NCBI GenBank assembly: GCA_951217055.1 | Contig: OX578286.1 | Coordinates: 2,363,508 to 2,427,507 of the forward strand | Source of the DNA: Gerris lacustris | Taxonomy: Eukaryota; Arthropoda; Insecta; Hemiptera; Gerridae | Direction: 5' to 3' | DNA length: 64,000 nucleotides | Shown here: positions 5,722-61,992 of the stretch, piece after piece | Layout: each line of letters starts with the position of its first letter | How positions within the stretch are numbered: position 1 is the stretch's first letter | Notes under the pieces: model-generated | What the model saw: the letters and a program-made list of their open reading frames with translations, nothing else | Told to the model about the DNA's origin: nothing | Databases searched by the model: none | Made by a program: the position numbers and the translations under genes

Positions 5722-6671
5722 CATTTAGATTCTATGTGACCTGATGATGATGTAATGTATTGAAATGTTCATTGTAAACAACTCATCTATGGTACCACTA
5801 AAGTAGTAATTCTTTATCTTTTATCCTGTTAGATATTGTTAGTTTGTAATGTAGTGTTTAGATGCTATGTTCCCTGATGATGTAATGTATTAAAATGTAC
5901 ATTGTAAGCAACTCATCTATTGTACAACTAAAGTAGTAATTCTTTATCTTTTATCCTGTTAGATATTGTTAGTTTGTAATGTAGTGTTTAGATGCTATGT
6001 TACCTGATGATGATGTAATGTATTGAAATGTACATTGTAAACAACTCATCTATTGTACAACTAAAGTAGTAATTCTTTATCTTTTATCCTGTTAGATATT
6101 GTTAGTTTGTAATGTAGTGTTTAGATGCTATGTTACCTGATGATGATGTAATGTATTGAAATGTACATTGTAAACAACTCATCTATTGTACAACTAAAGT
6201 AGTAATTCTTTATCTATTATCCTGTTAGATATTGTTAGTTTGTAATGTAGTGTTTAGATGCTATGTTACCTGATGATGATGTAATGTATTGAAATGTACA
6301 TTGTAAACAACTCATCTATTGTACAACTAAAGTAGTAATTCTTTATCTTTTATCCTGTTAGATATTGTTAGTTTGTAATGTAGAGTTTAGATGCTATGTT
6401 ACCTGATGATGATGTAATGTATTGAAATATACATTGTAAACAACTCATCTATTGTACAACTAAAGTAGTAATTCTTTATCTTTTATCCTGTTAGATATTG
6501 TTAGTTTGTAATGTAGAGTTTAGATGCTATGTTACCTGATGATGATGTAATGTATTGAAATATACATTGTAAACAACTCATCTATTGTACAACTAAAGTA
6601 GTAATTCTTTATCTTTTATCCTGTTAGATATTGTTAGTTTGTAATGTAGTGTTTAGATGCTATGTTACCTG
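5722..6671 (+). repeat. 133-bp tandem satellite, about seven copies
   Basis: The word GATGCTATGTTACC recurs at 5861, 5991, 6124, 6257, 6390, 6523 and 6656, with a diverged first unit at 5728. Spacing is 133 bp, with one 130-bp step caused by loss of an ATG triplet. Units are nearly identical and share a few linked substitutions (GTAGAG for GTAGTG in two adjacent units), indicating recent unequal exchange. Each unit holds CTGATGATGATG followed by TTGAAATGTAC, which resembles a degenerate hammerhead core (see findings). Confidence 0.95.
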
Positions 6672-7430
6672 ATTGAATCAGAAAATTTTACTATACACAA
6701 TTCTTGACATTTATAATTGGTGAAAAATGTATCCCATGTCTCTCGGAATAGAATCAGGTACTTTAGTGTTTGTACTGTGCTTCATAGGAGAGTTTTGAAC
6801 TTCTTGGACACACTAAACCGATACATGTAGTTGCATGTTCTCTGTGTTAGAGTATTTAGTTTAGATTGGTTTTGGTTTGAGAAAGGTTTATGAGTTTCAT
6901 TAGCAGTGCCTTGTGTGGGGTTCGAACCGTAACTTATTGATTTATAGCTTAATAAACATTGGAATTTTTATGACTCTATACATAAAGCTAGAGGAATTCA
7001 GCATGAGCTAATATTGTAGTTTACTTTATACTAACTAGTAATTTAAACGCCTTTCTAGTGCCGCTTCTATAAACTCTTAAGAAATAATGTTTTTTCAAGA
7101 ATTTTACTTAAAATCTGACTTAGTCCTAAAATCAGTCAGTGTGTGGTGGAACTAAATCGAAAAGTATTGATATTTAGTTGTTTATTGTAATGCTTAAAAA
7201 TTTAAATTCTAAGGTGTGCCATATAGGCTCCTTTATCCTGGAAAATATTTCTAAATTTTCTTATCAAATTTGATTTCAATAAGGAAATTTCGGCAAAATT
7301 AAATAATTCCTTTAATAAATAATAGAATTGACATACTTTGAAAAAGGAAATTATTTTTTTCAAATCATCGGAAAATCCATAATCATCTTTCTTTACTTTT
7401 GACTTCCTCATCATTTTACAAACTTTGATT
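6672..7430. other. no gene seen
   Basis: AT-rich. At 6919-6930 GGGTTCGAACCG resembles a T-arm or B-box in either orientation, but no A-box or tRNA fold is visible nearby. Confidence 0.4.
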
Positions 7431-20532: not shown

Positions 20533-20918
20533 TCCATTGTCCACCTCTAACCGCCTCTAACCACCTCTTACCACCTCTAACCACCTCTAGCCACTTCTAA
20601 CCACCTCATTACCACCTCTAACCACCTCATTACCACCTCTAACCACCTCTTAACCACCTCTAACTACCTCTAACTACCTCTAACCACCTCTAACCACCTC
20701 TAACTACATCTAACCACCTCTAACTACCACTAACCACCTCTAACAACTTCTAACGACCCCTAACTACCACTAACCACCTCTAACAACCTCTAACCACCCC
20801 TAAACATCTCTAACCACCTCTAACTTCCTCTAACCACCTCTAACTACCTCTAACCACCCCTAACTACCTCTAACCACCTCTAACCACCTCTAACTACCTC
20901 TAACCACCTCTAACCATC
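20533..20918 (-). repeat. 10-bp minisatellite array, TAACCACCTC orientation
   Basis: About 38 imperfect units of TAACCACCTC. It replaces a short stretch of the rep-B consensus right after CCATTGT. The unit is the complement of arrays at 21938, 30080, 44040 and 46670. Confidence 0.95.
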
Positions 20919-21850: not shown

Positions 21851-23232
21851 TTCCATCGTTTCAAAGTGTTTATTTCGAAGCAGTAATATAATGACAAAAT
21901 ACAGTTTATTACTTATGTCTTCTATTATTAAAAAAGTGGTTAGAGGTGGTTAGAGATGGTTAGGGATGGTTAGAGGTGGTTAGAGGTAGTTAGAGGTGAC
22001 TAGAGGTGGTTAGAGGTAGTTAGAGGTGACTAGAGGCGGTTAGAGGTAGTTAGAGGTGACTAGAGGTGGTTAGAGGTAGTTAGAGGTGACTAGAGGTGGT
22101 TAGAGGTAGTTAGAGGTAACTAGAGGCGGTTAGAGGTAGTTAGAGGTGACTAGAGGTGGTTAGAGGTAGTTAGAGGTGACTAGAGGTGGTTAGAGGTAGT
22201 TAGAGGTGACTAGAGGTGGTTAGAGGTAGTTAGAGGTGACTAGAGATGGTTAGAGGTAGTTAGAGGTGACTAGAGGTGGTTAGAGGTAGTTAGAGGTGAC
22301 TAGAGGTGGTTTGAGGTAGTTAGAGGTGACTAGAGGTGGTTAGAGGTGGTTAGAGGTGGTTAGAGGTGGTTAGAGGTGGTTAGAGGTGGTTAGAGGTAGT
22401 TAGAGGTGACTAGAGGTGGTTAGAGGTAGTTAGAGGTGACTAGAGGTGGTTAGAGGTAGTTAGAGGTGACTAGAGATGGTTAGAGGTAGTTAGAGGTGAC
22501 TAGAGGTGGTTCCATCGTTTCAAAGTGTTTATTTCGAAGCAGTAATATAATGACAAAATACAGTTTATTACTTATGTCTTCTATTATTAAAAAAGTGGTT
22601 AGAGGTGGTTAGAGATGGTTAGGGATGGTTAGAGGTGGTTAGAGGTAGTTAGAGGTGACTAGAGGTGGTTAGAGGTAGTTAGAGGTGACTAGAGGCGGTT
22701 AGAGGTAGTTAGAGGTGACTAGAGGTGGTTAGAGGTAGTTAGAGGTGACTAGAGGTGGTTAGAGGTAGTTAGAGGTAACTAGAGGCGGTTAGAGGTAGTT
22801 AGAGGTGACTAGAGGTGGTTAGAGGTAGTTAGAGGTGACTAGAGGTGGTTAGAGGTAGTTAGAGGTGACTAGAGGTGGTTAGAGGTAGTTAGAGGTGACT
22901 AGAGATGGTTAGAGGTAGTTAGAGGTGACTAGAGGTGGTTAGAGGTAGTTAGAGGTGACTAGAGGTGGTTTGAGGTAGTTAGAGGTGACTAGAGGTGGTT
23001 AGAGGTGGTTAGAGGTGGTTAGAGGTGGTTAGAGGTGGTTAGAGGTGGTTAGAGGTAGTTAGAGGTGACTAGAGGTGGTTAGAGGTAGTTAGAGGTGACT
23101 AGAGGTGGTTAGAGGTAGTTAGAGGTGACTAGAGATGGTTAGAGGTAGTTAGAGGTGACTAGAGGTGGTTAGAGGTAGTTAGAGGTGACTAGAGGTGGTT
23201 TGAGGTAGTTAGAGGTGACTAGAGGTAGTTAG
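21851..23232 (+). repeat. 10/30-bp minisatellite within a 659-bp tandem duplication
   Basis: Units of TTAGAGGTGG vary as TTAGAGGTAG, TTAGAGGTGA, CTAGAGGTGG and form a 30-bp higher-order period. The block starting TTCCATCGTTTCAAAGTG (about 87 bp of non-repeat sequence plus array) occurs at 21851 and again at 22510, 659 bp later, with the same pattern of array variants. The segment including its array was therefore duplicated as one unit. Confidence 0.95.
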
Positions 23233-30079: not shown

Positions 30080-30405
30080 GCGATTGTTAGAGGTGTTTAG
30101 AGGTAGTAAGAGGTGGTTAGAGGTTGTAATAGGTGGTTAGAGGTAGTTAGAGCTAGTTCGAGGTGGTTAGGGGTGACTAGAGGTGGTTAGAGTAGGTTGG
30201 AGTTGTTTAGAGGTGTTTAGAGGTAGTAAGAGGTGGTTAGAGGTGGTTAGAGGTGGTTAGAGGTGGTTAGAGATGGTTAGAGGTTGTAATAGGTGGTTAG
30301 AGGTAGTTAGAGGTAGTAAGAGGTGGTTAGAGGGGGTTTAGAGGTGGTTAGAGGTAGTAGGAGGTGGTTGGAGGTGGTTAGAGGTAGTAGGAGGTGGTTA
30401 GAGGA
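30080..30405 (+). repeat. 10-bp minisatellite array, GAGGTGGTTA orientation
   Basis: About 32 imperfect units (GAGGTGGTTA, GAGGTAGTAA, GAGGTTGTAA). Confidence 0.93.
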
Positions 30406-31022: not shown

Positions 31023-31500
31023 TTACCTCTAACCACCACTTATTACCTCTAACCACCTCTAACCACCTCTTACTACCTCTAGCCACCTATTAATACCTAT
31101 AGCCACCTCTAACCACCTCAGACCACCTCTAACCACCTCTTAACACCTATAGCCACCTCTAACCACCTCTAACCACCTCAGACCACCTCTGACCACCTTT
31201 AAATACCTATAGCCACCTCTAACCACCTCTAACCACTACTAACCACCTCAGACCACCTCTAACCACCTCTTAATACCTATAGCCACCTCTAACCACCACT
31301 AACCACCTCAGACCACCTCTATCCACTTCTAACCCCCTGTAACTGACTTTAACTATTCCTAACTACCTCTAACTAACATCAATCATTCTTTACCACCTAA
31401 AACCGATGTCAACCATTTCTAACCACCTCCAACTGACTTCAAGCATCCCAACCACCTCTAACCACCTAATCCTTAACCACCTCTAACCCCCTCTAACTGA
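31023..31500 (-). repeat. 10-bp minisatellite array, degenerate
   Basis: TAACCACCTC-type units, increasingly diverged to the right (ACTGACTTCAA, CATCAATCATT variants). Confidence 0.9.
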
Positions 31501-34094: not shown

Positions 34095-35775
34095 CTGATT
34101 CGACCATTCCCTACTTAACCATCCTAACCTACTTAAACCATAAACCACTTCTAACCTACCTCAACCATCCTAACCATCTCCAACTTACTTCATCCGTCCT
34201 AACCACCTCTTACTAACTTCAACTATTCCTAACCAACATCAATCATTCCTAATTACCTCAAACCGATTTCAACCATTCCTAACCCCCTCTAACTTATTCG
34301 ACCATTCTTAATAACTTATTATAACGATTCTTAAAAACTCATTACAACCATTCTTAACAAATTATTACAACCATTCCTAACCCTCTTTAACTGACTTAAA
34401 CCATTACTAACCTCCTCTAACTTAGTTCAATCATTCTTAACCCCCTCTAACCGGCATCAACTTGCTTCCTAATCAAATCAAACCAACCTTAACCATCCCT
34501 TGCTACCTCCAACCTTTCCTAACCACCTCCAACCATTCTTAACCACCTCCAACCATTCCTAACCACCTCCAACCATTCTTAACCACCTCCAACCATTCCT
34601 AACCACCTCCAACCATTCTTAACCACCTCCAACCATTCCTAACCACCTCCAACCTTTCCTAACCACCTCCAACCATTCTTAACCACCTCCAACCATTCCT
34701 AACAACCTCCAACCTTTCCTAACTACCTCCAACCATTCCTGACCACCTCCAACCATTCCTAACCACTTCCAACCTTTGCTAACCACCTCCCATCATTCCT
34801 AACCACCTCCAACCATTCCTAACCACCTCCAACCATTCCTAACCAGCTCCAACCATTCCTAACCACCTCCAACCATTCCTAACCACCTCCAACCTTTCCT
34901 AACTACCTCCAACCATTCCTAACCACCTCCAACCTTTCCTAACTACCTCCAACCATTCCTAACCACCTCCAACCTTTCCTAACTACCTCCAACCATTCCT
35001 AACCACCTCCAACCTTTTTTAACTACCTCCAACCTTTGCTAACCACCTCCAACCTTTCCTAACTACCTCCAACCTTTGCTAACCACCTCCAACCATTCCT
35101 AACCACCTCCAACCTTTGCTAACCACCTCCAACCTTTGCTAACCACCTCCAACCATTCCTAACCACCTCCAACCTTTCCTAACTACCTCCAACCATTCCT
35201 AACTACCTCCAACCATTCCTAACCACCTCCAACCTTTCCTAACTACCTCCAACCTTTGCTAACCACCTCCAACCTTTCCTAACTACCTCCAACCTTTGCT
35301 AACCACCTCCAACCTTTGCTAACCACCTCCAACCATTCCTAACCACCTCCAACCTTTCCTAACTACCTCCAACCATTCCTAACCACCTCCAACCATTCCT
35401 AACCACCTCCAACCATTCCTAACCACCTCCAACCATTCCTAACCACCTCCAACCTTTCCTAACTACCTCCAACCATTCCTAATGACCTCCAACCTTTCCT
35501 AACTACCTCCAACCTTTGCTAACCACCTCCAACCTTTGCTAACCACCTCCAACCATTCCTAACCACCTCCAACCTTTCCTAACTACCTCCAACCATTCCT
35601 AACCACCTCCAACCTTTGCTAACCACCTCCAACCATTCCTAACCACCTCCAACCTTTCCTAACCACTTCCAACCTTTGCTAACCACCTCCCATCATTCCT
35701 AACCACCTCAAACCTTTGCTAACCACCTCCAACCATTGCTAACCACCTCCAACCTTTGCTAACCACCTCCAATCT
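34095..35775 (-). repeat. long minisatellite array with 20-bp unit
   Basis: From 34500 about 64 units of AACCACCTCCAACCATTCCT and the alternatives CCAACCTTTCCT and CCAACCTTTGCT, in-register at 20 bp. 34095-34500 is a degenerate edge (AACTTATTCGACCATTCTTA and similar). It is a doubled, diverged relative of the 10-bp TAACCACCTC unit. Confidence 0.96.
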
Positions 35776-39568: not shown

Positions 39569-41512
39569 TCAATCGTTTTCTTTAAATTGCTTCCTAAATG
39601 CGCACAATCTTTCCTCCCCCTGTACTGCTCTTGGTAGCCAATGAAGACAGGTTGGGTGACTCTTTTTACAACCATCTACCGTACAAGTGGCCCTTTGTTC
39701 ACATAGTTTTGACTTATGCCCCGATTTCAAACACCCGAAACAAAGGTTGTGATCATAAACAAATTTTAAAATTACATCTGGTGTTGACTTACCTAGCTTA
39801 CTACATAAGGACAGCTCATGCTCATTTTTACAAAATAAACACCGTTTAGTGCCGTCATTTGACGTCACAAAATTACGACGACTTTTAACAGAGGGAAAAT
39901 ATTTGTCCTGAGAAGCCCAATTACTCCTAGCATCTTTGGGCCACCCTGTACTCCCACTTACACACTCACTCAGAGAGTAGACTGGATGATTTAGAGATTT
40001 AGCTATACTATCAACAAACTTTGCTAGATCTTCTATAGTTTCTTTATTTTCCAATCCCTCTATTGCCTTAACCCATCCCTGCAAATATTTAATAGGCAAG
40101 CGAGCCACCATCTTTTTTAAGTAGAGCTTTGAACTCATTTCGCGCCTAGATTCTTCGGACAAAACCCTACTAGCTGTACGTAAGGCCTCAGCAAACTCTA
40201 GCAAGCCTTTACTGTCGTTAAGCCCAAATACGGGCCCGTTAATTAATTTATTCGTCCAGGCCTCTGTAACTGCGGCTACGTTACCGAACCGCCGTTCTAA
40301 CAAAGCTATACTTTCAATATAATTTAAGCCAAAATTTTCTTGAAACAATTTTTGAGCCTCCCCTTCCAAAAACCTAGTTAGAAAAACTCTCTTTTCGTGG
40401 TCAGGGAGGACTCCATCTTCCAAATGTAATCTTATTTGGTCTCGAAAAATTGGGTACTTAGCACTTTCGCCATTAAATTTAAAGGGGACTAATGAATTTA
40501 GAATCTGTATTTTTGACATCAAAATCATAGGGTTAACTTGTGAAAGTGGAGCTTGGTTGTTACTTAAACTACTACCTTCTGTTGGAATACTTGGATGCTG
40601 TGCCTTTGGCGTTACTTCGGTAGCTGCTTGTGTCGTTGGACATCCATCTTTGGGTTGTAAAAGCGGTTCTTTGTCGTTGAAGCACTTCGATGGCGACGGA
40701 TTATTCTCGACTTTATTTGCGGGATCTTCGGTTTTCGAATTAGACTTTAACCACCTAAATACTGAATTTAGTCCATGGAGGTCAACGGCAGGATCTTCCA
40801 TAGCCTCCTGAAGAATTCTTGCTTTGTCTTGTTTTAACTTCAAGGCTCTTTCTCTAGCTTCGAGCTCTGCTTTCAAAACCTTCTCTTGAGCTTCGAATTC
40901 TTCTCGGGCCTTTGTTAGTGTTTCAGCTTCTGCTCTAACGGCTCTCTCTCTTGCTTCCAACTCAGCCTTCTGTGCTCGCTCCCGTGTCTCTAATTCATTT
41001 TTAAGTTTAACTAAAACGACTTGTTCCTTTTGAACTTCTTCTTCAAACTCTACAGCTTCGATTTTAGCCAGTAAGCGTAGCGTCGTACTATTTGTTTTAC
41101 GTGAGCTTCTAGAAGTACGAGAGTTAACTAAGCTCTTTTGAGACGTACTTTCATAGAAGCCTTGGAGGGAAATCATTCCCGAATCTATAAAGTTACCAAG
41201 AGTTCTTATCGTTTCGTTAATTTCTGCGATGTAAGAAGGATCGGCATGTTCCCTGAGTTCTTCACTTAGCCTTTCTATGCCAGCCTTAAGTTCTCTATGC
41301 AGCAGTCTAAGCTCACTTAAGGTGGCGCTTTGCAAGCTCGGAACACTGGGTTCTTTTTGCCCTAACTCATCGAATTCTGTCATTTTTGCTTTGACATTTC
41401 GTTTTACTGATTCTAATGTTTTGTAAATAAGAGAAAAAGCGTAAGCTTTACCTTTCTCGGTCATAGTTCTTTTCCTTTTGCTCTTCTCACTTTCTATTTC
41501 GCACTCTGACAT
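39569..41512 (-). CDS. gag: BEL/Pao Gag polyprotein
   Basis: 647 codons from the first in-frame ATG (41512). The frame is open further upstream into the LTR but without an ATG. Residues about 150-240 are a charged Glu/Arg/Ala-rich coiled coil (repeated ELEARERA). About 335-435 matches the Gag region typical of BEL/Pao elements (DUF1759 type: LVPFKFNGESAKYPIFRDQI, EGEAQKLF, LLERRFGN). The C-terminus has three zinc-binding clusters: C558/C561/H565/C570, the canonical CCHC C591/C594/H599/C604, and C610/C615/H619/C622/H624. It should bind and package element RNA in cytoplasmic particles. The frame stops 46 codons after the last CCHC cluster begins, where autonomous elements continue into protease and RT. 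That marks a pol deletion. The ORF is undamaged, implying recent or ongoing function in trans. Confidence 0.9.
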   Translation of the reverse strand: MSECEIESEKSKRKRTMTEKGKAYAFSLIYKTLESVKRNVKAKMTEFDELGQKEPSVPSLQSATLSELRLLHRELKAGIERLSEELREHADPSYIAEINETIRTLGNFIDSGMISLQGFYESTSQKSLVNSRTSRSSRKTNSTTLRLLAKIEAVEFEEEVQKEQVVLVKLKNELETRERAQKAELEARERAVRAEAETLTKAREEFEAQEKVLKAELEARERALKLKQDKARILQEAMEDPAVDLHGLNSVFRWLKSNSKTEDPANKVENNPSPSKCFNDKEPLLQPKDGCPTTQAATEVTPKAQHPSIPTEGSSLSNNQAPLSQVNPMILMSKIQILNSLVPFKFNGESAKYPIFRDQIRLHLEDGVLPDHEKRVFLTRFLEGEAQKLFQENFGLNYIESIALLERRFGNVAAVTEAWTNKLINGPVFGLNDSKGLLEFAEALRTASRVLSEESRREMSSKLYLKKMVARLPIKYLQGWVKAIEGLENKETIEDLAKFVDSIAKSLNHPVYSLSECVSGSTGWPKDARSNWASQDKYFPSVKSRRNFVTSNDGTKRCLFCKNEHELSLCSKLGKSTPDVILKFVYDHNLCFGCLKSGHKSKLCEQRATCTVDGCKKSHPTCLHWLPRAVQGEERLCAFRKQFKEND

Positions 41513-41563
41513 CACTTTTCTATACCTTGAAGATTCTTCACAAGAATTTAAACTTTTTTGTAC

Positions 41564-41869
41564 TGTCGCTGCCGGAATCAAACTTTGAGGCCGGCAGACG
41601 TGTAACTATGAAGAAAAACCCTTTGTTAACTGATAAGTACGAGTATATAACAATTATATTTACTGAATACAAAACGTAACTTTACATATACTTAACGTAC
41701 AAAAAAGTTCTACTTCTTAGAATAATTTCTTGACGTATATAAAACATGTCAATTGTATTCAAGTAACTTGGAACGACAGCTCGGTAACTTATGTCATACA
41801 ACAGAAATAAAAGTACTAAAACAAATAGAAAAAATAAACTAAGCGCAAATCGCTGTTCTCACAGCGACA
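41564..41869 (-). repeat. 5' LTR of the BEL/Pao element
   Basis: 306 bp, visually identical to the 3' LTR. It should hold the promoter. TATATA-like words occur on the element strand within it. Confidence 0.92.
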
Positions 41870-42560: not shown

Positions 42561-43280
42561 GTTTTTATTGGCTATAACAACAAGGTAAATTACATTTCTT
42601 CGGATAATTTTCATCGCTTTATCATAAGGTATTTGCACTAATTATTTCAAAATTTTAGGACTAGCCGTTATTGGGTGGTTGGGGGGTAATATACCTACCT
42701 ATAAGAAATCATACACCCATATTTCAACTCAAAATATATTAAAAATTCTAAATTTGCACACACGTAATTTCATTAGAAAAAAGTATTTTTTTTTTTAATA
42801 TTCAGTAGTTTGGCGTGTGTTAGTAAAGCTATAGTGTTTATGACACACTAATGCTATAACATATGTTATTATGTTGCTGTTGTTGTTGTTTATAATTAAA
42901 ACACGATTATACTACTTAGGCCATTGTTTTACTTGTTCTCGTGTGTTGTTTTAATAATAACATATACGAAGACTTGCTGAAGAGCCCGTTGTATTGTCTA
43001 AGCAAGACAATTAACTTTTGCTAAGCACGAAGCTACAACCGGTTTATTGTCTGAAGTACCTCTTCATTTCCTTTGTAAGCGGATTACGAACTACAGAATA
43101 TTGTTAATGAATTAACTGATTAGCATCTATAATAGTCATATATCTGGGTGAATTAAAGAATTAAAAAACCAGCGCTAACCTACTGACTTAATACTTTTAA
43201 TTTTACGTTAAGCTTTTCTTTTCAGAGATATTTTAATAATTATATAATACCGGTTTCTTTTATGCCTAAAATTATAATTT
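42561..43280. other. no gene seen
   Basis: AT-rich, no recognised feature. Confidence 0.4.
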
Positions 43281-43299
43281 TTTATAAACTTAGTGATTA

Positions 43300-43990
43300 T
43301 GGCAATTCTTTAGATCGTTACTTCCCTTATAAAAACAATACAGAGGGGAGTAACAATCTGAAGAAGGTGTACGGAATATTCTTCTTTAGACTGCTACTCC
43401 CCTTATCAAAAGAGAAGTGTGATATTCCTTATGATATTATTATCTGTAATATAGTTTCATCTAACAAGATAGTCATTAAGTAGATTAAAAATAAAACACT
43501 TCTTTAGATTGTTACTCCCCTTAGAAAACAAACAGGGGAGTAACAATCTAAAGAAGGTGACAGAATGTTATTCCTTAGACTGCTACTCCCTTTATAAAAG
43601 CAGAAGTGTGATATTCCTTTGTCCCAAAGTACATTGGACTAAACATCTCTCTCTTTCTTAAAAGTTATTTAGTCAAAGACATTTTCATTCTAAAACAACA
43701 TAGAGGAGTAACAATCTAAAGAAGTACCGTGATTATTATCATATGTAATAATGATCTAAGTATTTTTTGCTTTCTCATATTATGTAACATATATAAAGAG
43801 AAGAAAGTATCGTGATGGAACAAAAATACGATCTTAAGATTTTGGTAATTCTTTAGATTATTACTCCCCTATGATGTTTTAGAATATAAATGACTGACTA
43901 AATAACTATTAAGACAAAGGGATGTTTAGTCAAATGTACTTTAGGACACAGGAATATCACACTTCTTTTTGGTAACAGTCTAAAGATATT
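43300..43990. mobile_element. rep-H copies, tandem and rearranged
   Basis: Contains at least three hairpins of CTTTAGATTGTTACTCCCC ... GGGGAGTAACAATCT (43302-43740) and an inverted partial copy (43843-43990). The conserved core ATTGGACTAAACATC is present in both orientations. Borders are blurred by recombination. A rep-A terminus-like palindrome (CTTTCTCATATTATG ... AAAGAGAAGAAAGT) sits between them. Confidence 0.65.
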
Positions 43991-44039
43991 AAGAAATTAG
44001 CTACAGATATCAATTTGAAGATCTACGTCCCAAATATCT

Positions 44040-44280
44040 TGGAGGTGGTTAGAGATGGTTAGAGGTGGTTAGAGATGGTTATAGGTGGTTAGAGGTGGTT
44101 GGAAGTGGTTAGAGGTGGTTGAAGGTGGTTAGAGGTTGATGGAGGTGGTTAGATGTGGTTAGAGGTGGTTGGAGGGGATAGAGGTTGTTGGAAGTGGTTA
44201 GAGGTGGTTGAAGGTGGTTAGAGGTGGTTGGAGGTGGTTAGAGATGGTTAGAGGTGGATAGAGGTGGTTAGAGGTGGCTC
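44040..44280 (+). repeat. 10-bp minisatellite array, GAGGTGGTTA orientation
   Basis: About 24 units with GGAGGTGGTT and GAGATGGTTA variants. Confidence 0.94.
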
Positions 44281-44715
44281 TAAATCTCGGCCTGGCACGT
44301 ACAATATGAATTTACCGACGAATTCAACCATGTATCGTTTTGCTGAAAACAAGTTAAAAGGTAAAATTTCTGATTCCAGAGATCTAAAACGAAGTATAAT
44401 CATTCCCCTGTTGAACATTTTTTAGTGGGTTTAAAAATAAATTAATATTATCTTAAAATAGTCTGCCAATTATTACTATTTCGTATACTTTTATGATTTT
44501 TGTTAAAAAAAAAAAAATGTTTTTGACACTAACAGTATATAATTATATTTCAAATCAGCAATGTAATACCGTGTTTTTGCACACTGCAATAAGGTACACA
44601 ATTTGTGTTAGTGAGAGACACCAAGGGATGTGCCACGCACGCGTGACACATAGGAACTGTTCCAACATTAGACTATACGTCACAAAGCTGTTGGCTCGGC
44701 ATTACGCCATGTCCT

Positions 44716-44758
44716 GCATCGTTTCGTCGCGTCCGACTCATCAGGGGCCCGACGATGC
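44716..44758 (-). ncRNA. hammerhead ribozyme, monomer 1
   Basis: Minus strand: stem III GCATCGT, cleavage base C (GTC, cut between 44751 and 44750), GGGCCC as stem I, core CTGATGA, stem II GTCG-GACG-CGAC, then GAA and stem III ACGATGC. All invariant core bases are present (C3-A9, G12-A14, A15.1-U16.1, H17=C). Stem III is 7 perfect pairs and stem II 4 pairs. Helix III is the open one, so type III topology. Stem I is only the palindrome GGGCCC, too short for a hairpin of more than one pair, which suggests pairing between neighbouring monomers. Confidence 0.85.
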
Positions 44759-45024
44759 CCACCCAACTCTGGACCTATACTAAATCAAGAAGATCAGATA
44801 TAGGGCTTTACCAGAGACGAGCGTGCTCTCACACCGCCATTCTTGCTTGGCTGGCAAAACAAATCAGCAATGTAATACCGTGTTTTTGCACACTGCAATA
44901 AGGTACACAATTTGTGTTAGTGAGAGACACCAAGGGATGTGCCACGCAAGCGTGACACATAGGAACTGTTCCAACATTAGACTATACGTCACAAAGCTGT
45001 TGGCTCGGCATTACGCCATGTCCT

Positions 45025-45067
45025 GCATCGTTTCGTCGCGTCCGACTCATCAGGGGCCCGACGATGC
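45025..45067 (-). ncRNA. hammerhead ribozyme, monomer 2
   Basis: Identical to the motif in monomer 1, exactly 309 bp away. Cleavage at both sites of a tandem transcript would release a 309-nt RNA. Confidence 0.85.
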
Positions 45068-45279
45068 CCACCCAACTCTGGACCTATACTAAATCAAGAA
45101 GATCAGATATAGGGCTTTACCAGAGACGAGCGTGCTCTCACACCGCCATTCTTGCTTGGCTGGCAAAACAAATCAGCAATGTAAGTAATGGCATGTAATG
45201 GCGGTGTGAGAGCACGCTCGTCTCTGGTAAAGCCCTATATCTGATCTTCTTGATTTAGTATAGGTCCAGAGTTGGGTGG

Positions 45280-45322
45280 GCATCGTCGGGCCCCTGATGA
45301 GTCGGCCGCGACGAAACGATGC
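45280..45322 (+). ncRNA. hammerhead ribozyme, inverted monomer
   Basis: Same motif on the plus strand. Cleavage predicted after 45287. The only change is the stem II loop, GCCG instead of GACG; all core and stem bases are kept. Confidence 0.85.
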
Positions 45323-45455
45323 AGGACATGGCGTAATGCCGAGCCAACAGCTTTGTGACGTATAGTCTAATGTTGGAACAGTTCCTATGTGTCACGCTTG
45401 CGTGGCACATCCCTTGGTGTCTCTCACTAACACAAATTGTGTATAATTATATTTC

Positions 45456-46669
<1,214 letters not shown>

Positions 46670-47772
46670 GGTTAGAGGTGGTTAGAGGTGGTTAGAGGTA
46701 GTAAGAGGTGGTTAGAGGTAATAAGAGGTGGTTAGAGGTAGTAAGAGGAGGTTAGAGGTGGTTAGAGATGGTTAGAAGTAGTAAGAGGTGGTTAGAGGTG
46801 GTTGGAGGTAATAAGAGGTGGTTAGAGGTATTAAGACGTTGTTAGAGGTGGTTAGAGGTAATAAGAGCAGGGGCGGATTTAGCATCAAGTTTGGGTGGGG
46901 GTCACTACCGGGGGGGGGGGGTTTCCCTCAAATAAATTTAACTTATAGTGCAATTCGATGGCACCAAAGTATGAACACCAAGTATTTTTAAATTAATTTT
47001 AATACCTACTTAAAAATAGTAATTGTAAAAAAAAATTGTGCAACTACTAAAGTAATCATTATAGATTAAATAAATCATTCAATAGCCATTGTGCAATATT
47101 ACTTAAAATCTATAATTAACGATGCAATTTAATCAATAGTTAGGAAAAACATGTTTGTATTAGGGTGGCCATAATATAAAGTTTAGTCCAAAACGGGACA
47201 TTGAATTAGGGCGAGCTATTGCAGGCAGGTGGGGGAGTCTGGGGGCCCTAGGAAATTTTATGGAATTTTAAGGATAAATTTGCATTTTTCATATAAAATT
47301 TTTATTTTTATATAAATTTATAAAGTAAGTTTTGGCTACTTAAGAGCCACTTCAGATTCTAAATTAGTTGTTCACTGTTCACAGTAACATGGTATCAAAG
47401 TGACACACAATGAATAATCAATTATTATTGATAAAATATATGTAGAAAAATATAATAAAGTTGGATATTTAAAAATTCTATATTCATCTCAAACATTGGG
47501 GGGACACGTCCCCCAAGGCGATGACGCCCGTGATATTCCTTACTTTTTTCCTAAAATACAAATACAGTTATCTTACTGAGTAGTTAGTGCAAAATGAAGA
47601 CAAATATTATATTATATTTAATTTTTTAATGTGTAAAAATCAATTAACACAAACCCTTGCCAACACTTCTTTATGACAAATCTGAAAATTTGAGGGGGGG
47701 TCATGACCCCTGTGACCCCCCCTCTAAATCCGCCACTGAATAAGAGGTGGTTAGAGGTGGTTAGAGGTAATC
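46670..47772 (+). repeat. 10-bp minisatellite array split by a hAT-type insertion
   Basis: GAGGTGGTTA/GAGGTAGTAA units at 46670-46867 and 47739-47772. The two parts were one array before the element at 46868-47738 inserted. Confidence 0.93.
46868..47738. mobile_element. hAT-type non-autonomous element
   Basis: Ends CAGGGGCGGATTTAG and, inverted, CAGTGGCGGATTTAGA. Perfect 8-bp duplication AATAAGAG at 46860-46867 and 47739-47746, itself a variant of the minisatellite unit. 871 bp with G/C-runs at both ends and no transposase ORF. Confidence 0.88.
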
Positions 47773-51276: not shown

Positions 51277-51509
51277 GGTACTTCTTTAGATTGTTACTCC
51301 CCTAAGTTTTTTAGATAAAAAACTACTTTGACTAAATAACTATTAAGAAAAAGGGATGTTTAGTCCAATGTACTTTGGGACAAAGGAATATCCCACTTCT
51401 GTTTAGATAAGGGGAGTAACAGTCTAAAGAAGATCTCTCCATACACCTTCTTTAGATTGTTACTCCTCTCTGTTTTTTTATAAGGGGAGTAACAATCTAA
51501 AGAAGTGTC
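51277..51509. mobile_element. rep-H MITE, 8-bp target duplication
   Basis: Ends GGTACTTCTTTAGATTG and the inverse. Flanked by GTTTATTT at 51269-51276 and 51510-51517. Same internal order as 25678-25911. Confidence 0.85.
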
Positions 51510-51517
51510 GTTTATTT

Positions 51518-52379
51518 TTTATTTTTGATCTAGAAATCTATGATTATACTTAATTAAAAGAAGGTATAATGGTAAGATTTTGTAATAATTATCTTACATA
51601 AATCTTTGAATAAATAATTATATACGGGTTTATATTATAAATATAAATATTTTGAGTATTATAATTAATTATTTTTCATTTGATCCTTTGAAATTATATG
51701 TTTATTGTAACTCTATGCAACTTTTTTAATTTTTTTTTTAGCAAACTATAAAAGTTCAAGTGAAAGCTTGCGAATTTTTTTGCCCTCTTTCAATATGTAT
51801 TTTTTTTATTAGGCCAAAGAATTTTTTTCATGCTGAAATTAGATATTCACTGCTGACAGGAAAAAAGATTTAAAACCTTGCGAGAACTAAAATAAAAATG
51901 TATTTAAACCTGTAATCAATTTTCTACGGTGATTTTTGTCGAGAAAAAAAAAAATAATAAACAAGAAAAAAAAAAAGTTCAACGACTTTCAAAAAAGTTT
52001 TAATAAATTATATGTAAAATAGCTTAAATAAGCTTGTTTAAATAATACGAGCGTATGAAATTAGTACACTCAATATTTACGTATATTTAGCATTTTTTCT
52101 CCTTTTTTTTTTTTTTTTTTTTTTTTTTTTGTAAATTACATAAACTATAATTGTTAAAAAGAAAGTACACTAGAAAGTTAAGGTAAATAAATTCCGATCT
52201 GTTTCGAACCAAGAAAACATGCAAGAAATGCCTCTGGGGTAAAAAAATCTAAAACGCAAATATGTATTTATTAGTTCTTAAGTAGCTTAGCAGTATTTAT
52301 CACTGGTATTATCACATTTTTTGTGCTAATTCCGTAAAAATTCTTAATTTTTCAAATAACTAAAAAATGGTTTGTATTT
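51518..52379. other. no gene seen
   Basis: Very AT-rich, with a T-run of about 30 at 52100-52130. Confidence 0.4.
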
Positions 52380-52661: not shown

Positions 52662-53345
52662 TTATTTATGCACCTAGGGAGTAAAGTAAGCCATTATTCC
52701 CTGAGCGAAAAAGTTGGATCTTGAGACGAAGCCGAAGGAACCATGTTCCCTGAATCCCGAGGCGAAGCCGAGGGAATTAGACTCTTTAATTACCGAGGAG
52801 CAGCCGAGGGAATAACTCTAATTAGCTCACAAGGCGCAGCCGAGGGAATAACTCTAATTAGCTCCCGAGGCGCAGCCGAGGGAGATAATTATCGCGAGGG
52901 GAATAATGGCACTTTACTCACGAGGTACATACAATATTTTATCTCCAGTAAAAAGAAAATACACATTTTCGACCATTGCACAGTTTTTATTTATTATTTT
53001 AATAAATAACAATAAGTATTAGCACTTTTAATAGCAGATATAAGAGATTCAATATTAAAAACAAATAAGAATTGGAATTAAACTCAAATAGAAGGTTATT
53101 TAGATGCAGGTTATAATGTTGTAAACAAAGATAAACATGGTCAAAAAAGCGCAGTGCCGCCAACCTGATTTCAACAACTTCATTACATTAGCCATTCATT
53201 TTCTACTATTTATAAAATAATTAAGTTTCAATCTTTACTTTTTTGCCCTACTTTACTTTTTCGCCCTACTTTTACTTTTTCTCCCTACTTTTTGCGCTCA
53301 GGGATGAAAAGACTTACTTTAGTCCCTCTAAACTATCAAAATCAT
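52662..53345 (+). repeat. rep-F copy 2 with tandem CGCAGCCGAGGGA modules
   Basis: Carries five GAGGCGCAGCCGAGGGA-like modules (52750-52890) where copy 1 has two or three. The 88-codon ORF through them is a by-product. Confidence 0.7.
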
Positions 53346-54711: not shown

Positions 54712-55215
54712 GTTATGATTTTGAATTAGTTTAGAGGGACTAAAACAGGTCTTTTCATCCCTGAGCTCAAATAGTAGGGAGAAAAAGTAGAAGTAGGGCG
54801 AAAAAGTAAAGTAGGGTAAAAAAGTAAAGATTGTAACTTAAATTATTTTATAAATAGTAGAAAACGAATGGCTAATGTAATGAAGTTGTTGAAATCAGGT
54901 TGGCGACACTTGCTTTTTCGACCATGTTTATCTTTGTTTATAACCTGCATTTAAATAACCTCAAATTTAATTTCAATTCTTATTTGTTTTTAATATTTAA
55001 TCTCTTATATCTGCTAATAAAAGTGCTAATAATTATTGTTATTTATTAAAATAATAAATAAAAACTGTGCAAATGACGAAAATGTGTATTTTCTTCCTAC
55101 TGGAGATAAAATATTGTATGTACCTCGTGAGTAAAGTGCCATTATTCCCCTCGCGATAATTATCTCCCTCGGCTGCGCCTCGGGAGCTAATTAGAGTTAT
55201 TCCCTCGGCTTCGTT
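54712..55215 (-). repeat. rep-F copy 3, inverted
   Basis: From 'agtttagagggactaaa' to CTCGGCTGCGCCTCGGGAGC and TCCCTCGGCTTCG. Confidence 0.7.
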
Positions 55216-56283: not shown

Positions 56284-56974
56284 GGCATTTCTTTAGATTG
56301 TTACTCCCCTTATAAAAAAAAAATATAGTGGGGAGTAACAATCTAATGAAGGTGTACGGAATGTTCTTCTTTAGATTGTTACTCCCCTTATAAAGGAAAC
56401 AGAGGGGAGTAACAATCTAAATAAAGGTGTACGGAATGTTCTTCTTTAGATTGTTAGTCCCCTTATAAACAAAACGGATGGGTGGAACCATCTAAAGATG
56501 GTGAACGGAATGTTCTTCTTTTGATTGTTACTCCCCTTATAAAAATAAAACAGAAGGGAGTAACAATCTAAAGAAGGTGTACGGAATGTTCTTCTTTAGA
56601 TTGTTACTCCCCTTATAAAAAAAATTCAGAGGGGAGTAACAATCTAAAGAAGGTGTACGGAATGTTCTTCTTTAGATTGTTACTCCTCTTATAAAGAAAA
56701 CAGAGGGGTGTAGCAATCTAAAGAAGTCGTATGGAATGTTCTTCTTTAGATTGTTACTCCCCTTATAAAAAAAATACAGAAGGGAGTAACAATCTAAAGA
56801 AGGTGTATGGAATGTTCTTCTTTAGACTGTTACTTCCCTTATAGAAACAGAAGTGTGATATTCCGTTGTCCCCAAGTGCATTGGACTAAACATACCTTTG
56901 TCTTAATAGTTATTTAGTCAAAGTCATTTATAGTCTAAAAAAAAACGAGGGGGAGTAACAATCTAAAGAAGTAT
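56284..56974. mobile_element. rep-H element expanded into an array of seven hairpins
   Basis: A unit of 74-76 bp, GGAATGTTCTTCTTTAGATT then GTTACTCCCC, a short A-rich loop and GGGGAGTAACAATCTAAAGA, repeats seven times (phase marks at 56356, 56431, 56505, 56581, 56657, 56731, 56807). The normal single-copy right half (ATTGGACTAAACAT ...) and right terminus then follow. Each unit is a near-perfect hairpin with arms of about 22 bp. Flanks GAGAAATT and GACAAAGT agree at six of eight positions. Confidence 0.85.
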
Positions 56975-57641: not shown

Positions 57642-57775
57642 TCTTCAGTATAGCTTAGTTGGCTAGAGAGTCTTTACTGGAAATAGAAGAGGCCCGTGGT
57701 TCGAATCCCGGTGCTGAAGTCTATTTTTCTCTGTCTGTCTCCCGTTGTAAATATTAATTATAATTTGATTTAAAA
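57642..57775 (+). mobile_element. tRNA-derived SINE, intact head
   Basis: A-box TAGCTTAGTTGG at 57651-57662 and B-box GGTTCGAATCC at 57698-57708 are both perfect and at tRNA spacing. CTTCAGT and GCTGAAG pair as a 7-bp acceptor stem. The T-arm is mispaired and the anticodon loop is not canonical, so it is a SINE head, not a functional tRNA. The body is CTATTTTTCTCTGTCTGTCT plus an AT-rich tail. Confidence 0.8.
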
Positions 57776-61477: not shown

Positions 61478-61992
61478 GTAGGGAGAAAAAGTTATGATTT
61501 TGAATTAGTTTAGTTTAGAGGGACTAAAGTAAGTCTTTTCATCCCTGAACTTAAAAAGTAGGGAGAAAAAGTAAAAGTAGGGCGAAAAAGTAAAGTAGGG
61601 CGAAAAAGTAAAGATTGCAACTTAATTATTTTATAAATAGTAGAAAATGAATGGCTAATGCAATGAAGTTGTTGAAATCAGGTTGGCGGCACTGCGCTTT
61701 TTTGACCATGTTTATCTTTGTTTGTAACCTGCATCTAAATAACCTTCTATTTGAGTTTAATTCCAATTCTTATTTGTTTTTAATATTGAATCTCTTAATA
61801 TCTGCTAATAAAAGTGCTAATAATTATGGTTATTTATTAAAATAATAAATAAAAAGTGTGCAATGGACGAAAATGTGTATTTTCTTCCTACTGGAGATAA
61901 AATATTGTATGTACCTCGTGAGTAAAGTGTCATTATTCCCCTCGCGATAATTATCTACCTCGGCTGCGCCTCGGGAGCTAATTAGAATTAAA
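61478..61992 (-). repeat. rep-F copy 4, inverted
   Basis: Visibly close to 54712-55215 through AAAAAGTAGGGAGAAAAAGT and CCTCGGCTGCGCCTCGGG. Confidence 0.7.

Follow-up and report, generated by a model that had tools for sequence, protein, structure and literature searches.

An apparently young retrozyme-like insertion in Gerris lacustris with type III hammerhead motifs whose loop-less, palindromic stem I is predicted to pair between units

The locus described here is a single one, situated within a 64-kb window of the Gerris lacustris genome (the window being the whole stretch of DNA that was analysed), where a tandem repeat with a period of 309 bp and 99 % matches occupies positions 44551–45184. 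Two head-to-tail 309-bp units and an inverted partial unit had been reported at this site in an earlier note, and this arrangement was borne out: the two units lie at 44552–44860 and 44861–45169, and the inverted one runs from 45197 to 45441, or to 45443 if its match is followed to the end. The tandem units are identical at 308 of 309 positions (the sole difference being C/A at 44640), whilst the inverted copy differs from unit 2 by a single base in the loop of stem II, giving two substitutions among the three units. The inverted repeat itself comprises 44904–45150 and 45197–45443 (247 nt). The GC content of the 309-nt unit is 48.9 %, and no additional copies of it were found elsewhere in the 64-kb window. 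The features of the element are as follows, with unit positions numbered from the predicted cleavage site.

44538–44551, no strand: left copy of the target-site duplication, 14 bp, TATAATTATATTTC, an exact match to 45442–45455; its last base fits the unit too
44552–44860, minus: unit 1, 309 bp, the 3'-most of the element, hammerhead sense on the minus strand (tandem repeat, 99 % matches)
44716–44758, minus: hammerhead core of unit 1, predicted cleavage between 44751 and 44750 (RF00008 Hammerhead_3, 42.6 bits, model 1–54, stem I loop length 0)
44861–45169, minus: unit 2, 309 bp (tandem repeat)
45025–45067, minus: hammerhead core of unit 2, predicted cleavage between 45060 and 45059 (RF00008, 42.6 bits)
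45170–45184, minus: 15-nt stub of a further unit, the 5' end of the sense segment (exact repeat), corresponding to unit position 185 from the cleavage site
45185–45196, no strand: 12-nt filler at the inversion junction, the first 8 bases of which, GTAATGGC, recur where the inverted unit joins (read by eye)
45197–45441, plus: inverted partial unit, unit positions 219–309 and then 1–156 (inverted repeat); the match extends 2 nt into the right target-site copy
45280–45322, plus: hammerhead core of the inverted unit with loop II GCCG, predicted cleavage between 45287 and 45288 (RF00008, 40.5 bits)
45442–45455, no strand: right copy of the target-site duplication, 14 bp (from the sequence); its first two bases fit the inverted unit too

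The surroundings hold several other repeats and candidate genes. An open frame of 678 codons on the minus strand (39569–41605) contains a DUF1759 domain (E 6e-7), and its C-terminus looks like a zinc knuckle on visual inspection. The frame resembles the gag of BEL/Pao elements, of which this domain is typical; to our knowledge, BEL/Pao elements with a DUF1759 gag are confined to animals. Among 7994 candidates scored, this frame had one relative at E 1e-3 or better (P0001, 23 % identity). A 10-bp satellite (GAGGTGGTTA, its complement, variants and multiples) occurs on both strands at 20541–20916, 21941–23232, 30086–30404, 31025–31497, 34505–35772, 44042–44277 and 46669–46859, with one array sitting 274 bp to the left of the element. 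Tandem repeats of 76 bp at 56289–56847, with relatives within 43295–43870, look hairpin-forming (CTTTAGATTGTTACTCCCC and its complement) and perhaps represent a hairpin-type mobile element; weak Rfam microRNA and snoRNA look-alikes, all below cut-off, fall on these repeats and at 51404–51551. The 18-bp sequence CTTTACTTTTTCGCCCTA, in places as its complement or a variant, forms short arrays at 1956–2014, 53233–53291, 54773–54829 and 61554–61612, and a tRNA-like Rfam match above cut-off (36 versus 29 bits) on the plus strand at 57644–57719 possibly marks a tRNA-derived SINE or a tRNA pseudogene. Lastly, seven tandem copies of a 133-bp repeat (5724–6673, 97 % matches), each with a stretch of CCTGATGA, were considered as candidate hammerheads; they contain CTGATGA, but gave no Rfam hammerhead match at E-values up to 5.

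The 14-bp sequence TATAATTATATTTC abuts the interval 44552–45441 on both sides. As it is AT-rich, we measured the local match rate: of 1,904,714 random pairs drawn from the local flanks, 715 agreed at all 12 of the fixed positions compared. Read in hammerhead sense, the locus opens with one target copy, followed by the inverted segment (unit positions 156 to 1, then 309 to 219, in descending order), the filler, the sense segment (185–309, 1–309, 1–199) and the second target copy. The inverted and sense segments are contiguous along a multimeric RNA except for 28 nt, and the junctions between element and target overlap by 2 nt and 1 nt. This near-contiguity is a statement modulo 309 and is by itself weak evidence; it is instead the target-site duplication and the inversion that carry the insertion argument. 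A layout with an inverted 5' part and a target-site duplication is an outcome of twin-primed, target-primed reverse transcription, known from LINEs. Thus, 44552–45441 is one insertion, with boundaries fixed to the base save for one or two ambiguous positions. The 308/309 identity together with the intact target-site duplication gives the insertion a young appearance, and the duplication and 5' inversion support a young non-LTR, retrozyme-like element.

All three copies contain GTC, GGGCCC, CTGATGA, GTCG/CGAC and GAAAC, closed by a GCATCGT/ACGATGC stem III, with the tandem units carrying these pieces on the minus strand and the inverted unit carrying them on the plus strand; the only change inside the motif lies in the stem II loop (GACG versus GCCG). 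The catalogue of motif pieces given in the earlier note, and its remark that variation is confined to that loop, therefore both stand. Using cmscan, each of the three motifs was assigned to Hammerhead_3 (RF00008) over the full model, scoring 42.6, 42.6 and 40.5 bits, with E-values of 1.4e-7 to 5.3e-7 for a 1.4-kb stretch, and of 6.2e-6, 6.2e-6 and 2.4e-5 when both strands of the whole 64 kb were searched. Hence the covariance search proposed in that note did return type III matches in every copy (40.5–42.6 bits), although all of them fall under the Rfam gathering score of 48.5, for which reason a default Rfam scan lists no hammerhead here. In the RF00008 alignment all three copies retain an intact conserved core as well as stems II and III, with no non-standard pair marked; stem III has 7 bp, and stem II consists of GUCG/CGAC with a 4-nt loop, this loop being four positions shorter than that of the model. 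Stem I consists of GGG and CCC with nothing between them (loop length 0), such that the three bases 3' of the cleavage site are directly joined to the three bases preceding CTGATGA. Without a loop, this stem cannot close within one unit, or at most by one pair and at an energy cost. The claim of a full hammerhead ribozyme per unit consequently fails at stem I, which is a bare GGGCCC, and the motif seems to depend on a partner unit. Two other readings of the motif were tried and rejected: a type I arrangement, as visual inspection of the sequence downstream of GAAAC revealed no nearby GUC that could close a short stem III, and a clan scan reports type III only; and a hammerhead encoded by the other strand of the units, where a search for the exact core found no CTGATGA.

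A home-made, looser scan for core and stems found the three motifs in the real window; when the whole window was shuffled 617 times with its dinucleotide content preserved, it gave 22 matches, including at least one with stems as long as those of the real motifs. Collections of viruses, bacteria and archaea were also scanned, and given this composition they serve as a control and not as a search for animal relatives. The exact core pattern had no matches in viral contigs, and a degenerate zero-loop pattern had 60 in viral and at least 119 in prokaryotic contigs. Among the 179 matches listed, one combined a stem II of 3 or more pairs with a stem III of 4 or more, its hexamer being non-palindromic; three had a palindromic hexamer, none of which showed a stem II of at least 3 pairs. 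The unit matched none of the plasmids and phages compared.

Folding was modelled for isolated 43-nt modules, under energy models that ignore the hammerhead core itself, magnesium and co-transcriptional folding. For a single module, the predicted minimum (−13.7 kcal/mol) is a fold other than the hammerhead; stems II and III alone give −11.4, and the addition of a one-base-pair stem I gives −9.2. For two tandem-type modules, the minimum-energy dimer is exactly a double hammerhead (−39.1 kcal/mol), in which a 6-bp stem I is shared, both stem III helices form between the partners and stem II forms within each strand. The predicted binding energy is −9.6 kcal/mol, which corresponds to ∼0.2 μM under the standard conditions of the model, and the stem I pairs have probabilities of 0.89–0.90. 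When only the hexamer was varied and the rest kept fixed, the double hammerhead was the minimum for nine of 64 palindromic hexamers, GGGCCC included, and for none of 200 random non-palindromic ones; a palindrome is thus required but rarely sufficient, the remaining 55 palindromes not giving the dimer fold. Of 20 orders of the letters of GGGCCC, two yielded it (GGGCCC and GCCGGC). The module of the inverted copy, with its GCCG loop, adopts another predicted fold both alone (−17.5) and as a homodimer (−41.6, stem I probability 0), whilst paired with a tandem-type module its minimum is still the double hammerhead, with a stem I probability of only 0.26–0.27.

The picture for longer RNAs is less favourable. 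In linear tandem RNAs of 392, 472 and 652 nt, a forced double hammerhead lies 4.2, 4.7 and 4.6 kcal/mol above the minimum, and the cross-unit stem I has a probability of about 0.06, 0.28 and 0.004, respectively (range 0.004–0.29). One of the two cross-unit stem III helices has a probability of 0.003–0.009 in the three RNAs, and since it never exceeds 0.009 the complete double hammerhead is predicted to make up < 1 % of the ensemble in all three. The double form is nevertheless favoured over two single hammerheads without stem I in each case (−135.1 versus −133.2, −160.2 versus −155.3 and −227.4 versus −226.6). The 309-nt unit is fairly self-paired (z −2.4 against 100 shuffles, 67 % paired), and the monomer circle has its own minimum without a hammerhead; stems II and III alone cost just 2.7 kcal/mol there, and a partly formed single hammerhead may therefore occur. 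The energies and probabilities in long RNA, the 55 of 64 failing palindromes and the dimer fold of the inverted copy all speak, within the limits of these models, against a dimer reading. In addition, a stem I–stem II loop contact of the natural type is impossible, as there is no stem I loop.

With respect to its class, the description of the locus as a non-coding retrozyme-like element is well supported by a tandem unit of ∼300 bp, a core in each unit that is assignable to a hammerhead type, the 14-bp target-site duplication, the 5' inversion and the near-identical copies. The duplication is longer than 4 bp, and no LTR was seen: within 43000–47000, the only other long direct repeats are the decamer satellite arrays and short families. 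A coding unit was considered and rejected, as stops occur in every frame of both strands (4, 5 and 5 per unit in the hammerhead-sense frames; 1, 2 and 6 in antisense), and the antisense frame with one stop could be chance. A SINE driven by pol III was likewise discarded, since simple patterns found no A or B box on either strand. No Pfam match to a reverse transcriptase or GIY-YIG domain was found in the 23 scanned of the 33 listed frames of 90 or more codons. We regard the support for a retrozyme reading as good, but file the element as a variant rather than a standard member because its hammerhead has the type III order. The fuller proposal, a young, non-autonomous, non-coding animal-type non-LTR retrozyme in which a palindromic-stem-I double hammerhead cuts multimers, we hold at about an even chance; the proposition of an animal retrozyme whose natural hammerhead, of type III, works only as a dimer, held together by a palindromic stem I that has no loop, is more tentative, falling somewhat short of that.

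Under the fuller proposal, transcription through the array would produce multimers, in which neighbouring units, or two separate RNAs, would pair their GGGCCC hexamers into a shared 6-bp stem I and swap strands of stem III. The paired units would constitute a symmetric double hammerhead, each half of which has its active site after GUC, and their mutual cutting would be expected, from hammerhead chemistry, to release 309-nt RNAs with 5'-hydroxyl and cyclic phosphate ends. The earlier note had supposed that the multimeric transcript is cut into 309-nt units; if this occurs, the route we would predict is the two-unit double hammerhead and not independent cutting within each unit. A host ligase would presumably circularise the products. 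By this multimer-only logic, dimeric or longer RNAs could be cut again, whilst a lone monomer or circle, being without stem I, would stay intact. The insertion anatomy suggests that the reverse transcriptase of a partner element would then copy the RNA at a nicked site, with target-primed reverse transcription and a second internal priming generating the 14-bp duplication and the inverted 5' part. If both segments share one template, it would measure ∼908 nt (91 + 309 + 309 + 199); such a template could have been a linear multimer or a circle that the enzyme went round almost three times.

Several other explanations have to be set against this proposal. The motif could be a decayed hammerhead of a retrozyme or satellite, in which the stem I loop was deleted, the palindrome is all that remains of a GC-rich stem and the ribozyme no longer works. 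Scores below the gathering cut-off, an alignment in which the loop of stem I and some of that of stem II are missing, and the GGG and CCC halves, which are the remnant expected of a short GC stem after loop loss, would all agree with such decay, as would the predicted share of < 1 % for the double hammerhead in long RNA and the loop change in the third copy that disfavours the dimer. It sits poorly, however, with an intact core and intact stems II and III in all three copies, with an insertion that looks young (308/309 identity, intact target-site duplication) and with a dimer fold that arises from nine of 64 palindromes, including GGGCCC, and from none of 200 other hexamers; we consider decay somewhat unlikely. 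A further explanation is a slow hammerhead working within a single unit, where stems II and III hold the core, stem I is reduced to one base pair (a G–C pair closing GGCC) or is lacking altogether, and pairing between units is irrelevant. The cost of 2.7 kcal/mol for stems II and III in the circle is compatible with this, but the axolotl hammerhead is reported to work poorly on its own and far better once dimerized, and in our module the one-base-pair stem I lies at −9.2 kcal/mol, compared with −11.4 without it and −13.7 for the minimum. We judge slow single-unit cutting to be unlikely.

Less plausible still is that the locus is a genomic copy of a viroid-like or hepatitis delta virus (HDV)-like circular RNA, rather than a member of a retroelement family. 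The unit is of a size to form a circle and is fairly self-paired, but its opposite strand has no CTGATGA, and the frame encoding a delta antigen is longer than 309 nt. Animal type III hammerheads are reported in HDV-like RNAs of a toad and a termite and in some invertebrate genomes (PMC7936874); yet stems I and II are long in those motifs, in contrast to the motif described here, and this origin appears very improbable. The least credible alternative, to which we give next to no weight, is an ordinary satellite repeat with a hammerhead-like motif arising by chance. The window is indeed rich in unrelated satellites; a chance motif was nonetheless rejected on the Rfam E-value of 6e-6 over the window and the rate of 22 looser matches in 617 whole-window shuffles, and the motif is present in every unit of what is a discrete insertion with a target-site duplication.

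Should the double-hammerhead proposal prove true, the ribozyme would in effect count units, such that multimers are cut and monomer circles are safe, and the hammerhead dimer switch would be able to move from stem III to stem I. It would also provide a built-in answer to the question, raised in PMC7229834, of how animal retrozyme circles avoid re-cutting themselves: as described there, such circles are abundant although most are predicted to let the hammerhead fold freely, and a block of unknown nature is proposed. Two published searches checked their matches for stem I–stem II contacts, and given such contact-based inspection and the sub-gathering scores obtained here, more motifs of this kind may hide in animal genomes.

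Animal retrozymes are described as giving RNAs of ∼170–400 nt from tandem units of 150–450 bp with low GC, target-site duplications of > 4 bp and type I hammerheads (Cervera and de la Pena 2020, PMC7229834). The Gerris element likewise has short tandem units with a hammerhead in each, no LTRs and a duplication above 4 bp; its GC content of 48.9 % is within the limit given in the text of that paper (< 50 %) but over that of its figure (< 45 %). The main difference lies in the ribozyme: the animal non-LTR retrozymes are of type I, those of axolotl dimerizing via a weak palindromic stem III, whereas here the order is type III and the palindrome forms stem I. The same source reports that tRNA ligase circularised axolotl and mussel retrozyme RNA in vitro.

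Type III hammerheads of plant retrozymes and satellites (RF00008) resemble the present motif in an open stem III and a 4-bp stem II with a 4-nt loop, but have a 6–8-nt stem I loop and a stem I–stem II contact, both absent here, and we saw no LTRs. Type III motifs cleave well as monomers (PMC6155905), and their usual stem I length is 6 bp, equal to that of the shared stem I predicted here (PMC7936874). In animals they are described from HDV-like RNAs of toad and termite and from some invertebrate genomes, mostly of flies, with long stems I and II (PMC7936874). The discontinuous type III hammerhead of mammalian Clec2 also has an unusual stem I, but one of 150 to 1500 nt, whereas that of the Gerris motif encloses nothing (PMC6155905). 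No report of a natural hammerhead dimerizing through a loop-less stem I was found in the literature searched, subscription papers and supplements lying outside its reach and absence thus being unproven; the accessible portions of PMC11167929 and PMC10085705 contained nothing bearing on stem I dimers.

Engineered trans-acting type III hammerheads do consist of two strands joined by a loop-less stem I, which indicates that such a stem is chemically workable; they are asymmetric, with a ribozyme strand and a substrate strand, whereas here both strands would be both, by virtue of the palindrome (PMC6155905). Minimal hammerheads without stem III are known from Penelope-like elements (PMC7761336, PMC6155905). 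Double hammerheads are described from avocado sunblotch viroid, newt satellite RNA and Penelope-like elements; they merge through stem III, and in them, as proposed here, a stem that is too weak to form in a single copy is completed by a palindrome common to two copies (PMC6466107). A palindromic stem III and loop III are also described in PMC3088659. In these systems the palindrome lies in stem III or its loop, whereas in the Gerris element it lies in stem I, and stem III is 7 bp long without a short loop. As the double hammerheads in the literature consulted use stem III and the animal retrozymes are of type I, a retrozyme whose units pair through a palindromic stem I would represent a new variant.
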